From positions 186,001 to 250,000 of the forward strand of contig PNKZ01000005.1 in assembly GCA_013822735.1 (NCBI GenBank): a stretch of 64,000 nt of DNA, read 5' to 3'. Every line of letters starts with the position of its first letter. Within the stretch, counting starts at the first letter, position 1. A program made the translations under genes and the position numbers. Under the pieces are notes generated by a model. The model saw only the letters and a list, made by a program, of their open reading frames with translations. It ran no database searches and was not told where the DNA came from. Source of the stretch: Pirellula sp. (GTDB taxonomy: Bacteria > Planctomycetota > Planctomycetia > Pirellulales > PNKZ01). Below, in pieces: positions 59,543 through 64,000 of this stretch.

Positions 59543-59549
59543 AATGTTC

Positions 59550-61544
59550 ATGTCTCGTGTTTCCGATCGTAATGTTTCGCCGCGCAACGGCCATACCCTC
59601 ATGGCCGGGCTCGGCGCCCGGATCAGTGGCTGCGCTAGTCAGAAAGAAGAGAGCCTCGAAGATCAGACGGACCACAATAAAGAAGTCGTCACGGAGATGT
59701 ATTCGGCCGGTCCGATCGAATACCTGATCATTGCCACGAAAGGGAAAGGGGAACGCCTGGACCGGCCGGAATTGACGGACATCGAGGCGGAATTCCGAAA
59801 ACGGTACCTCGACGTCTTCGTGTGGGAAGATCTGGGCCGGCTGGTGCGCGGCGTCGAAGCTGTGCGGCTGCTGGGCATCGCCGTCGATCACGGCACGCGC
59901 GTGATCGTGCCGAACGACAACATCGACACGGCGAACGAAACGTGGGAAGCCGATGCCATCAAGGCCTGCGCGGACCACGTAGCCCATCAGGAGCACACTT
60001 CCCGAAGGCTCAAACACAAGCTGGCGAACCGCTTCGTGAAGCACGGCGGGGCGATGTCGCGGCCGATTGCCGGATACGTCGTTCCCCAAGGAGTGAAGTC
60101 GTTCAACGACTGGCTCAAAGACCCGCGGTTCGACGTCCGCTCGAACCCGCAAGCGGACCCGTGGATCTACGACGGTGCCAAGCTCCTCCGCGAAACGCAG
60201 AACTGCACGGCGGTCGCCGACATGCTGAACGCTCGCGGCGTCGCCGTCGGTCCGTACTGCCGGCGGAAAACCTGGGACGGGGCGATGGTGCGCCGATTCT
60301 ACGGCAACCCGTTGCTCAAAGGTCAAGCGGTACGTAAACGGCGGCATTCCGTCAAGTTTCACGAATCGGGAGTGCGGAAGTCGGTGCTCAATCCGAAAGG
60401 TCCCCTGAACTACGCCTGCCCGCACTTGGCCTACTTCGACGCGGACGAGCACGACGACTTGCAGCAACTGCTCAAGGACCGGAACTACCGATACAAGCGA
60501 GCTTCCGTCCACGGCGTGGACCCGCTCACGCGCGTACCGCGGAAGCGAACTCGCTTTCCGGGGCAACACGGTCGCTGCTGGTACTGCGGCTACCATCACG
60601 TGTGGGGCGGCAATGGCGTGACGGAGAATCTGATGTGCAGCAATGCGCGGCACTGGCAGTGCTGGAACTCGGTCGGTTACGACGGGGCCTTGTTCACCGG
60701 TCGCTTGGTCGACGTCATTAAAGCGGAACTCTACGGTCTCGACGGTTTCGATAGTCAATACCGCGAGTTGATCGAGCAGTCCGGCAGTAGCGACCGGGGC
60801 GAGGTCGCCCGGCGATGGGAACGGCTCCAACAGGACGAACTCGAACTCGCCAAACGTCGCGAGCGGTTCGTCGAAGCGATCGATAAGTTCGGCGTACAAC
60901 CGATGTTCGAGGCTAAGCTGCAGGAGATCGACGCGGACGAGCGGAAGGTCCGGCTCCAACGGCGGGCGCTGGAACGCCTCGGGCAAGAGCGGCTCCAGGT
61001 TCCGGAGTCGACCATTGTGCTGCGTCAGATGCTCGAAGAAGAATTCGTCGGTGCCGCCCACGATTCGCCGGAGTTCGGCGATTTGCTGCGCAAGTTGTGC
61101 CCTGACGTCTTCGTCTACTTAGTGCGGTTGTGCGACGGCGGCGGCTTGCTGCCGCGGGCGTACGTCCGACTGACGCTCGACGGAATCGTCCCCGATGCGC
61201 GGCTCGTGCCGGGGCTGGACGGTTTGTTGCGGCGTGAAGCGACGTTCGACCTGTTCGATGCTCCGCAGCGGGAACGCATCCGCACGGATGCCGTGCGGTG
61301 GCAGGCGTCCGAACTGGCGCCGAAGGCGATCGCCGCTAGGATCGCCGCAACCACCATCGAGCGTCCGACGGCGACCGCCGTGCAAAACGCGTTGAACCTG
61401 CAGGAGCGGATGACCGACTTGGGGCTCTCGTCGCCGTGGGTCACGGTGCTGGAGCCGCCGACCGACCTGCCGAAACTCCGGCGGCACCGGAACGCCAAGT
61501 ACCGCTTCACGCCGCTCGACGGCTATGCACGACCGCCGGTTTAG
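59550..61544 (+). CDS. Large serine recombinase
   Basis: 664 aa. The resolvase-type N-terminal domain (about 18-160) has 'LGARISGCASQKEESLEDQ', where R24 and catalytic S26 match the RxS and S...Q..SL..Q pattern; 'VWEDLGRLVRGVEAVR' is the usual DxxRLxR helix. The middle 'recombinase' domain is followed by a zinc ribbon CWYCG ... LMC ... WQC (about 345-372) and a coiled-coil region ('LQQDELELAKRRERFVEAIDK'). This is the layout of integrases of the phiC31/TnpX type. The start at 59550 has GGAGG at 8 bases; an ATG at 59544 is too close. Likely moves the linked cassette. Confidence 0.9.
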   Translation: MSRVSDRNVSPRNGHTLMAGLGARISGCASQKEESLEDQTDHNKEVVTEMYSAGPIEYLIIATKGKGERLDRPELTDIEAEFRKRYLDVFVWEDLGRLVRGVEAVRLLGIAVDHGTRVIVPNDNIDTANETWEADAIKACADHVAHQEHTSRRLKHKLANRFVKHGGAMSRPIAGYVVPQGVKSFNDWLKDPRFDVRSNPQADPWIYDGAKLLRETQNCTAVADMLNARGVAVGPYCRRKTWDGAMVRRFYGNPLLKGQAVRKRRHSVKFHESGVRKSVLNPKGPLNYACPHLAYFDADEHDDLQQLLKDRNYRYKRASVHGVDPLTRVPRKRTRFPGQHGRCWYCGYHHVWGGNGVTENLMCSNARHWQCWNSVGYDGALFTGRLVDVIKAELYGLDGFDSQYRELIEQSGSSDRGEVARRWERLQQDELELAKRRERFVEAIDKFGVQPMFEAKLQEIDADERKVRLQRRALERLGQERLQVPESTIVLRQMLEEEFVGAAHDSPEFGDLLRKLCPDVFVYLVRLCDGGGLLPRAYVRLTLDGIVPDARLVPGLDGLLRREATFDLFDAPQRERIRTDAVRWQASELAPKAIAARIAATTIERPTATAVQNALNLQERMTDLGLSSPWVTVLEPPTDLPKLRRHRNAKYRFTPLDGYARPPV

Positions 61545-61580
61545 GCGCGTCTTGATCTACGTTTCTTCATTACCTTTATG

Positions 61581-61610
61581 AGCCCCGGCCCGTCGCCGGG
61601 GTTCTTTTTT
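61581..61610 (+). terminator. Intrinsic terminator after the recombinase
   Basis: A GCCCCGGC ... GCCGGGGT stem (8 bp, 5-base loop) followed by TCTTTTTT, 37 bases past the stop codon. Confidence 0.9.
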
Positions 61611-61645
61611 GCGCCGACGTCAAGCGTTCGGCCACGTGTTAACCC

Positions 61646-61819
61646 ATGTCTTCGAGAAAAACTCCACCAATCCCGCCGACGGAGCGAGCCGGGCCGATTC
61701 GCCCCGGTTCTACGCTCCATCGCGTTCTCTTGCTCGTTGCCGCGCGCGTCGCCGACAAGCTACGGCGCCCCGTCGGTTCGCCCGAGTCGTTGGGAGCCGA
61801 GAAAGAATCTGCGTCGTAG
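61646..61819 (+). CDS. Possible 57-aa basic peptide in the cassette leader
   Basis: ATG at 61646 opens 57 codons to TAG at 61819. The middle (LHRVLLLVAARVADKLRRPV) would be an amphipathic helix, the ends are polar, and Arg/Lys content is high. Ribosome-site evidence is weak. The frame sits between two intrinsic terminators, after the recombinase and before the ubiquitin-like genes, so it could be a small protein or a leader peptide. No family recognised. Confidence 0.4.
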   Translation: MSSRKTPPIPPTERAGPIRPGSTLHRVLLLVAARVADKLRRPVGSPESLGAEKESAS

Positions 61820-61951
61820 CACGGCCGATCACACTCGCCTCTTGCGAACCCATTCGCAAGTACCCGCACCGGATCTCTTTTCGCATCCGCGGATTATCGC
61901 CGCTCTGCCGATCGCCGTTAGTTCTCGCGCGATTTTTCCGGCGCCGGTCAT

Positions 61952-61981
61952 GCCGCCGACATTCGCGGCGGCCCCTTTTTT
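61952..61981 (+). terminator. Terminator-like hairpin immediately before the cassette
   Basis: GCCGCCG ... CGGCGGC (7 bp, 7-base loop) then CCCTTTTTT. It ends 19 bases before the ATG at 62000 and 9 bases before the GAGGAGG ribosome site, so it must be bypassed for any read-through from the recombinase side. Could be an attenuator. Confidence 0.7.
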
Positions 61982-61999
61982 CATCCTGAGGAGGATTCT

Positions 62000-62731
62000 A
62001 TGACTGCAACTCTGTGCGCATTCCGCGCGTGCAAATCGGATACGAACGCTGCGAACTCCCAGATCTCCGCGACGCTCCAACGCTGGCGGCGGCAGGTCGC
62101 CGGTCGGACGGACCTGGCGGAACGTCGGGGCGTGCGGCCTTTCGCTTTAGTGGGCCACCGCATCTCCGGCAACGTTCGCGGTTCGCTGGTTCCGCTCGAC
62201 AAGCTGTCGTTCGTAGCCCTGTTTGACGAACGGGACGAGGAGGACCGCCTAGCCACGCGGCTCGTCGGCTGCCGAGCCCGCTTAAATGCCGAGCACCTGC
62301 TAATCGGCGGCGCGGAATCGAGCCTGTTCGACAAGAACGTGCGTTTGGCCCCCGCCGGCGCATGCGGCGGGCGGCTCGACCCGCGCGACGGGCCGCTCTG
62401 TGAATTGGCTCTGAGCTGGGAGCAACATCTCGAGCGTGTGAATCGCCATCCGCACTTTCCCCGTCGCAATCTCCTGCGCTGGCCGCAGTGGTGGTGCCGC
62501 GTGAACACGCCGGCGGCGGACGTGCCGACGCACGACGTCGACGGGCAGCGCCTCGTACGTTTGGAAACCGCGGTGGCCGGCCGGCTGCCGATCGTGGCGG
62601 TGTACGCCGACGTCGCCGGAGTACCTAAACGACAAGTCCTTGCCGGCACCGAACCCCGTCGGTTGCTCTGCGGCGTGCAGGGGGACGTCGTTTTCGATCT
62701 CTATCACAGTCGCTTTCGCCGTGCGGACTGA
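62000..62731 (+). CDS. Unknown protein, first gene of the ubiquitin-like cassette
   Basis: 243 aa, cytoplasmic; ATG has a very strong GAGGAGG ribosome site at 5 bases. No ThiF, JAB, E2 or AAA motif is seen. Readable features are a basic helical N-terminus (ATLQRWRRQVAGRTDLAERRG), a central alpha/beta stretch ('LSFVALFDERDEEDRLATRL') and a His/Trp/Arg-rich middle ('NRHPHFPRRNLLRWPQWWCR'). The three genes run in one direction with 50- and 73-base gaps, which supports a joint function with the beta-grasp protein and the E2-like protein. Function not known. Confidence 0.75.
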   Translation: MTATLCAFRACKSDTNAANSQISATLQRWRRQVAGRTDLAERRGVRPFALVGHRISGNVRGSLVPLDKLSFVALFDERDEEDRLATRLVGCRARLNAEHLLIGGAESSLFDKNVRLAPAGACGGRLDPRDGPLCELALSWEQHLERVNRHPHFPRRNLLRWPQWWCRVNTPAADVPTHDVDGQRLVRLETAVAGRLPIVAVYADVAGVPKRQVLAGTEPRRLLCGVQGDVVFDLYHSRFRRAD

Positions 62732-62781
62732 TCTCCGCCGGTCGCCCGTTTTGATTTCATTCTTATTGGAGAGTAACGCAC

Positions 62782-63009
62782 ATGAAGGTTTTGTTCATCA
62801 ACGCCACCGGCGGCGGCTTTGCCGCGCCGTTGGAGATCGCCGAGGGAACCACCGTCGGCATGCTGTTCCTGGAGCAGGTCGGCGGCGATCCCAAAAACTA
62901 CCTGATCCGCGTCGATCGCTTGCCGACGACGATCCATCAGGTGCTGCACGAAGGGGCGAGAATCTCGATCACGCCGCTGAAAATCGAAGGCGCGCGCGGC
63001 GTGGCGTAG
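62782..63009 (+). CDS. MoaD/ubiquitin-like beta-grasp protein
   Basis: 75 aa, ATG preceded by TTGGAGAGTAA. The order beta-beta-alpha-beta-beta is readable: 'KVLFINATGGGF', 'PLEIAEGTTVGMLF', 'NYLIRVDRLP', 'HQVLHEGARISITPLKIEGA'. This is the MoaD/ThiS form of the ubiquitin fold (VLxEGxRISITPxKIEGA is common in small MoaD-like proteins of such clusters). The C-terminus is ARGVA, so no terminal Gly-Gly is present in the primary product. It is followed 73 bases later by an E2-like gene, which argues for protein conjugation over molybdopterin synthesis. Confidence 0.8.
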   Translation: MKVLFINATGGGFAAPLEIAEGTTVGMLFLEQVGGDPKNYLIRVDRLPTTIHQVLHEGARISITPLKIEGARGVA

Positions 63010-63082
63010 GTATCAGGGCGAGCGGCGCGGCGACCTCGGCGGTCGCCGTTGCCGCCCGCCTGCCTTGCAATCGGAGCCCACC

Positions 63083-64000
63083 ATGCCTTGGAAACCTTTG
63101 CTCTGGCGGACCGCCGTCCGCCTCGAGGCGGCCTACGCCCGGCGCCGAGCGCCCTTGTTCGGCGATCCGCTCCACTGGGACGCTTGGAGCGAACTGGTCG
63201 CGGGAATTCGTCGCCGCGACAAAGCCGCACGTCGCGGCTGGCGGTATGCGCGGATGCGGGAACACGAGACGCTGCAGCGTGAGCTGGAGCACCTGTTGAG
63301 CAATTTGCGGGTTCTGCGCGGAAGCTTCCTGCTGCCGCAAGTCCCTCGCCTCCCCGGAGCCGCCGAACTGTACGCCGAACTCGCAGCGGCGGAAGCGGAG
63401 TTCGGTGCGGTCGTCGAGGAGGACTACGAACTGTTCGTCACGACCGAGCCGATTTCGCTGGAAGGCATTGATCTCGGTCCGTTTGAGATTCGGTTGGATC
63501 TCCGTCGTCTGGAAGAGCCGGAGCCGTATCGTATCGTGGCCGTCGATCCCCGGCCGGCGCACAGTTCCTCGGAAACCGTCCATCCGCACGTCCATGCGCA
63601 GCGGATCTGCCTGGGAGAAGGGAAGCCCGCCGTGGCGGCGGCTCTGGCCGAAGGACGCCTCGGCGACTTGTTTCAGCTCGTCCATCGCGTCCTGCAGACC
63701 TACGGCGAGGGCTCGGCTTACGTACCGCTCGATCGCTGGTGCGGCTCGCCGTGCGCCGATTGCGACGACGCGATCGACGAGGAGGAAGGTTACTCGTGCT
63801 ACGACTGCGACGGAGTCGTCTGCGGCGGCTGCGTGCGGAGTTGTCGCTACTGCGATCGCTCGGCCTGCCATGAGTGCGCGACCGTCTGCTACTCCTGTGA
63901 AGAGACGGTATGCGGACGGTGTCTCGAGCGCTGCGAACAGTGTGGAGAAGATTTCTGTTCCGAATGTTTAACGGAAGGAGTATGTGATGCCTGTCGAGAG
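63083..64000 (+). CDS. E2-like protein fused to a Cys-rich treble-clef/RING-like tail (3' end beyond window)
   Basis: 306 residues visible; no stop before base 64000. Residues 1-85 are a basic helical lead-in. Residues ~110-220 resemble a ubiquitin-conjugating (E2) core: 'GPFEIRLDLRRLEEPEPYRI', then HPHV (167-170) and RICLGEG with candidate catalytic C176, nine residues after H167. In canonical E2s HPN precedes the ICLD cysteine by about ten. Residues 220-304 have 21 cysteines, mainly in 15-residue units C-x2-C-x4-C-x2-C-x3 (starts at 239, 254, 269, 284). These should bind several zinc ions, as RING or treble-clef modules do. Inferred role: conjugating enzyme with built-in E3-type part for the beta-grasp protein upstream. 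Confidence 0.75.
   Translation, partial: MPWKPLLWRTAVRLEAAYARRRAPLFGDPLHWDAWSELVAGIRRRDKAARRGWRYARMREHETLQRELEHLLSNLRVLRGSFLLPQVPRLPGAAELYAELAAAEAEFGAVVEEDYELFVTTEPISLEGIDLGPFEIRLDLRRLEEPEPYRIVAVDPRPAHSSSETVHPHVHAQRICLGEGKPAVAAALAEGRLGDLFQLVHRVLQTYGEGSAYVPLDRWCGSPCADCDDAIDEEEGYSCYDCDGVVCGGCVRSCRYCDRSACHECATVCYSCEETVCGRCLERCEQCGEDFCSECLTEGVCDACRE

Follow-up and report, generated by a model that had tools for sequence, protein, structure and literature searches.

The stretch of DNA considered here (the window, 64,000 bases in length) covers bases 186001-250000 of contig C5 in a 6.9-Mb Pirellula genome, and its relatives in our profile search are planctomycetes. Near its end lies a gene cassette that probably encodes a self-contained pathway of ubiquitin-like protein (Ubl) conjugation, carried as cargo of a mobile element. 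On the forward strand, a large serine recombinase of 666 aa (59544-61544), which is the mobility gene of this copy and shows a 'GARIS' catalytic-serine region together with recombinase and zinc-ribbon regions, is followed by X243, an open reading frame (ORF) of 243 aa specific to the window-type subclade (62000-62731), by a 75-aa ORF for a ThiS/MoaD-like beta-grasp Ubl ending in TPLKIEG and then ARGVA (62782-63009), and by an E2-like/zinc-array ORF, which starts at 63083 (or 63065) and runs past 64000 to window-equivalent position 64150 (355 aa at full length). Next on the same strand come a JAB/JAMM isopeptidase (window-equivalent 63984-64796, L004:6985-7797), of which only the first codons (63984-64000) lie in the window, and, beyond the window, a ThiF-type E1 (window-equivalent 64636-65307). 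Two small genes close the locus 3' of E1, an ORF of 64 aa (window-equivalent 65419-65613) and then a 57-aa membrane protein (window-equivalent 65693-65866). The earlier note, made from the letters of the window, had described the recombinase and the three genes of 243 aa, 75 aa and E2-like/Cys-rich type behind it, and all four lie where it placed them; it had also proposed that E1 and JAB genes be sought past 64000, where both indeed occur, with no unrelated genes in their stead. The E2 and JAB reading frames overlap, the E2 stop lying about 94 bases past the start of the conserved JAB residues, and the JAB and E1 frames overlap likewise. In the clade of window-type copies, some 160 bases of the JAB ORF are shared, in other frames, with each of its two neighbours, which is unusually tight packing for a bacterial operon. 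These genes are more than chance reading frames, because X243 is 56-62% identical in four further loci (it is conserved in L006 and L008-L011) and because Ubl and E2 occur in all 34 planctomycete loci examined.

The same genome holds a second window-type copy on C26, likewise behind a serine recombinase. A third copy, beside TniQ, lies on C5 at a distance of about 196 kb. The flanks of this third copy (L007:10249-14988 and L007:249-2165) encode a TniQ-type protein and a 1579-aa protein of nucleosidase-NTPase type and defence-like look, the latter judged from sequence only. With a profile built from the three E2 proteins of this genome, 13 of 392 sampled planctomycete genomes proved to have the gene, with up to five matches per genome, and a sixth locus was later found in the genome with five. 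Ubl accompanies E2 at every planctomycete locus (34/34), and wherever E1 lay on the fetched DNA (31/31 loci) the genes followed the order Ubl-E2-JAB-E1 on one strand. Around this core two builds are seen: that of the window (recombinase - (GP88) - X243 - Ubl - E2 - JAB - E1 - s70 - membrane protein) and a longer one (lipo190 - DUF1257 - DUF2997 - AAA+ - X320 - s81 - s70 - Ubl - E2 - JAB - E1). X320 is present in 19 planctomycete loci, AAA in 18 and X243 in six.

Three of the core proteins can be tied to known families. E1 matches Pfam ThiF at 6.4e-19, and by profile its nearest solved structures are ThiF (9e-17), Ub-E1 (2e-16) and BubCD (2e-11); its GxGxxG motif, D54, D56, K77, D116 and C174-T175 are invariant, with a candidate catalytic cysteine within C-T-x-x-x-T-I-Y. 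The invariant JAB residues E45, H105, H107, S115 and D118 form the exact JAMM pattern (E, HxHx7Sx2D); the match to Prok-JAB is below cut-off (4.5e-4), the family libraries give weak matches only, and the nearest solved relative, itself a weak match (E 0.04), is an Rpn11-like protein. Ubl homologues give sub-threshold matches to Pfam ThiS (7e-4 to 4e-3), and against E. coli ThiS the Ubl profile reaches a score of 28.9, compared with at most 13.4 for 60 shuffles; the window Ubl has no convincing match in Pfam, NCBIfam or PADLOC. In all 40 loci, six of them viral, K-I-E-G or a slight variation on it, with a conserved Gly, stands towards the end of the Ubl, and in every one at least one residue follows this Gly, the tails being variable and non-conserved. 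A conserved Gly behind which such a tail is kept suggests that JAB must mature the Ubl. X243 has no match in Pfam, NCBIfam or PADLOC, its AlphaFold model is too poor to use (predicted local distance difference test score, pLDDT, 52), and no relation between X243 and X320 is detectable.

The fourth protein, the E2-like one, has a helical N-terminus, a UBC-like region at about 93-222 and an array of about ten CxxC motifs at about 224-304. Its HPHVHAQRIC segment contains the putative active-site Cys 176, and the motif HPH[VI]-x4/5-C-x-G, with [I/L] preceding the Cys, occurs together with the CxxC array in 40 of 40 loci. In the AlphaFold model (pLDDT 81), a helix (93-107) is followed by a beta-meander to 167, the HPH..C loop and two helices (178-190 and 193-205), a predicted succession that is the order of an E2. 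The structural check proposed in the earlier note thus gave an E2-like topology over about 93-205. With Foldseek, PHD and FYVE fingers lead the matches of the zinc region, and the rest are mostly ubiquitin-conjugating enzymes, among others UbcA1, UBE2O, Pex4, UBE2A, UBE2H and Cdc34, each at E 0.16 to 2. The matches of VIA-align to the same model are helical and are taken up by the N-terminal helices, so that the E2 part was not reached. When the E2 proteins of three copies were scanned, Pfam, NCBIfam and PADLOC gave no convincing match, and a PHROGs scan of the window-copy proteins gave nothing for E2 or X243 beyond meaningless weak matches.

Many copies have a further set of genes at their side. 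A module of AAA, X320 (DUF3150) and DUF1257 is common to planctomycete elements and large phages, and is found in most planctomycete copies, where Pfam gives DUF2997 at 1.4e-16, AAA at 1e-26 and DUF1257 at 3.6e-4, the last below cut-off. In the large-phage clade, E1 is followed a few kb downstream by AAA+ and X320, there recognisable as DUF3150 (5e-19), and further on by DUF1257 (2.9e-11); X320 was found in 13 of 27 viral records tested. In IMG/VR contigs of 53-168 kb (L084-L092), the conserved small genes V5, V8, V9 and V12 stand between Ubl-E2-JAB-E1 and AAA+ - DUF3150 - DUF1257. In planctomycetes, AAA+ - X320 (DUF3150-like) - s81 - s70 with DUF1257/DUF2997 was also seen mostly without the Ubl cassette (L120-L131), in several cases beside a serine recombinase and in some with a neighbour resembling a DNA sliding clamp (C16).

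The earlier note had placed the conjugation system on a mobile element, a view that the distribution supports. Of 22 copies, eight have a recombinase no farther than 10 kb away. About 0.2 would be expected, given that the 13 carrier genomes contain 40 Pfam recombinase domains over about 90 Mb, the loci not being independent. In a tree of E2, JAB and E1, the copies of one genome fall into different clades, near-identical copies are found across different genomes (L045/L047 and L054/L056), and the window copy stands inside a fully supported X243-type clade. The L045 and L047 cassettes are nearly identical though their genera differ (g8 and g13), which looks like recent transfer. Recombinase enrichment, several copies per genome, transfer across genera and presence in phages thus support the notion that the cassette is mobile-element cargo. 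In the search for an insertion site, tRNA-Ser was found at 3 of 30 loci only. The window recombinase itself matches PF00239 (Resolvase, 1.1e-8) and PF07508 (Recombinase, 1.2e-4), both over cut-off, and a PHROG integrase at 1.2e-23. As to whether it belongs to the cassette, as the earlier note had assumed, it is present at the window copy but is no constant partner: its relatives, present in 13 of 392 genomes, are mostly not neighbours of the cassette, and some other copies of the cassette have tyrosine recombinases or none. These mixed types and scattered relatives rule out the recombinase as a fixed component; it marks mobility.

The cassette is also carried by phages. In IMG/VR, a first scan gave six contigs and a scan with the E1 profile 37, partly overlapping, and about 18 distinct contigs have Ubl-E2-JAB-E1 in order with an HPH-Cys E2. 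Terminase genes are present in at least eight of the viral records examined, and two contigs additionally carry portal, major head and tape-measure genes. Some carrier contigs are 160-190 kb long, the block standing amid many small phage genes, and on L064, a prophage-like contig, a recombinase 29% identical to that of the window lies directly upstream of Ubl. Among reference plasmids and reference phages, tblastn found no E2 relative. In the E2+JAB+E1 tree under midpoint rooting, the phage copies are the most divergent and the planctomycete copies nest within phage diversity, which hints at a phage origin but depends on the root. Three viral contigs (L102, L106 and L108) encode E1, JAB and an E2-like protein with HPHV...C and without the CxxC array, no Ubl having been found by model, and may represent a sister family. 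In Bacteroides phage crAss001 (L118, MH675552.1), gp77, annotated with a metalloprotease domain, adjoins gp76 (ThiF), and the preceding gp78 has HSHV...C; with gp78-gp77-gp76, crAss-like phages may have a remote version of the E2-JAB-E1 block.

Taken together, the reading with the best support is a full Ubl-tagging pathway that can be reversed and that includes an E2-E3 hybrid, and we consider its place as self-contained cargo of a mobile element probable. The catalytic steps that we infer would run as follows. The Ubl would be made with a short tail after its almost invariant K-I-E-G, and JAB would trim this tail and expose the Gly. The stand-alone ThiF-type E1 would then adenylate the Gly and load the Ubl onto its invariant Cys, from which it would be handed to the Cys of the E2-like protein (HPH[VI]-x4/5-[I/L]-C). 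The fused PHD/FYVE/RING-like zinc array may pick the target, with X243 helping in the window subclade, which would make the protein an E2-E3 hybrid, and JAB might finally remove the tag and so reverse conjugation. In the fuller versions, the AAA+ ATPase with DUF3150, DUF1257 and DUF2997 probably unfolds or remodels the tagged proteins.

Several observations weigh against this reading. Sequence profile searches fail altogether to recover an E2: the profile of the E2 domain gave zero matches to PDB sequences up to E 10, and hhalign to human E2s aligns the HPH and the Cys, yet its score lies within that of shuffles. Not one of the Foldseek matches to E2s is significant alone, and a few distant viral relatives (L090 and L117) are without the HPH motif. 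Since the sequence-only tests are negative and the structural matches individually so weak, the E2 assignment, drawn from the predicted fold, the active-site pattern and the gene context, is likely but not proven. Moreover, the AAA-DUF3150-DUF1257 module occurs in planctomycetes without the cassette too, and the window copy is without AAA. Copies of the module without the cassette rule out AAA-DUF3150 as an exclusive partner, and its coupling to Ubl conjugation is therefore frequent, not obligatory.

Compared with known systems, the locus is nearest to type 6d of the five prokaryotic Ubl operon types (6a-6e) described in the 2006 survey of Iyer, Burroughs and Aravind (PMC1779556), which consists of a stand-alone Ubl, E2, JAB and E1. 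Both have separate E2, JAB and E1 genes and a stand-alone Ubl with a conserved C-terminal Gly in one operon of sporadic distribution. However, the 6d E2s are without the classical active-site histidine and the 6d JAB has an N-terminal domain, whereas the present E2 combines HPH...C with a CxxC array at its C-terminus, the Ubl is ThiS/MoaD-like with a tail after KIEG, and X243 or AAA/DUF3150/DUF1257/DUF2997 partners are added; that survey makes no mention of Planctomycetes, AAA or recombinases. The Bil (BilABCD), Bub and CBASS type II systems share the logic of Ubl, E1, E2 and deconjugase, and the present E1 is related to BubCD and BilD, but here there are a single Ubl, a small unfused E1 and a zinc-array E2, and the Bil, Bub and CBASS gene sets published in PMC11354881 and PMC13373217 differ from the cassette. 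Of the Bil models only BilD was matched, by E1 at 4e-6, with no match for Ubl, E2 or JAB; CBASS type II and 6A-MBL call for an E1-E2 fusion plus a cGAS-like or MBL gene, but here E1 and E2 are separate genes, and scores against these systems were far below the curated cut-offs, as were those of E1 against the MoeB/ThiF equivalogs, though it is related to them. The PRTRC system combines a ThiF-family E1 with Ubl, E2 and JAB-type partners; here only PRTRC_ThiF was matched, with 33 bits against a cut-off of 144.75, and the other PRTRC models were not. Eukaryotic E2-E3 hybrids such as UBE2O combine an E2 with a module for target selection in a single chain, and UBE2O was one of the Foldseek matches of the present E2, but its extra domains are unrelated and include no zinc array. 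The Caldiarchaeum Ub-E1-E2-RING-Rpn11 operon (PMC5654768) is an equally complete small cascade with a zinc-binding E3-like element and a JAMM deconjugase; its small RING is separate and its E2 a clear UBC, whereas the present locus has its zinc array joined to a divergent E2 in one protein. We read the locus as a probably new variant of prokaryotic Ubl conjugation borne by mobile elements and phages.

That phages and mobile elements carry the pathway speaks for its part in a conflict of such elements with their hosts, in which it might be a weapon, a shield or a remodelling tool. Two more specific roles are compatible with the tagging pathway. Bacterial Ubl pathways are recent additions to anti-phage biology, and the cassette might be a defence operon of the Bil, CBASS type II or Bub sort, in which conjugation would inactivate phage proteins and the recombinase would only move the gene set. 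We regard this as possible but somewhat doubtful: the sporadic, multi-copy and mobile distribution is consistent with it, as are weak matches of E1 to the PADLOC E1-E2 and BilD models and the third copy beside TniQ and the 1579-aa nucleosidase/NTPase-type gene, whose build appears defence-like from its sequence alone, but no component meets a curated defence model and many carriers are themselves phages, including the contigs of 160-190 kb. These carriers lead to the other role, which we put forward tentatively, namely that the Ubl pathway and the AAA+ module serve large phages in the remodelling of proteins of the host or the virion, or as a counter-measure to defences, and that planctomycete mobile elements and prophages captured the system. 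Terminases on the carrier contigs, AAA, DUF3150 and DUF1257 near the block in the large-phage clade and the nesting of planctomycete copies among the more divergent phage ones point that way, but the position of the root is arbitrary and the bacterial sampling almost wholly Planctomycetota. A further form, rather unlikely, is that of a viral ubiquitin-proteostasis module, in which a phage Ubl pathway with the zinc-array E2-E3 hybrid would work with a Cdc48-like AAA+, DUF3150 and DUF1257 and would have been captured by planctomycete mobile elements.

A sulfur-carrier pathway, in which a metabolite or tRNA would receive sulfur through the ThiS/MoaD-like protein, E1 and JAB, with the E2-like protein as acceptor enzyme, is improbable. 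Ubl and E1 are indeed closest to ThiS/MoaD and ThiF/MoeB, but they stand beside a protein with a zinc array and an invariant HPH-Cys pattern, and the distribution is mobile and phage-borne; given the E2 and the lack of any recognisable sulfur-pathway gene recurring beside the block, a purely metabolic role is unlikely. That the serine recombinase and the conjugation genes next to it form a single functional unit, in which the latter control the former, is very improbable. Homologues of this recombinase do stand by the block in L058 and directly upstream of it in phage contig L064, but the idea is largely refuted by the mixed recombinase types and by a family that lies mostly elsewhere.

To conclude, in the literature compared here bacterial Ubl pathways are host-side, and our results add an unmodelled family of zinc-array E2s on mobile elements and large tailed phages. 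Its minimal E1-E2-JAB set may serve the study of how E2-E3 hybrids emerge. The repeated proximity of a Cdc48-type ATPase, DUF3150 and DUF1257 provides a testable partner for DUF1257 (Ycf35), DUF2997 and DUF3150. If the viral ubiquitin-proteostasis module were true, bacterial viruses would have their own equivalent of the ubiquitin-Cdc48 axis.

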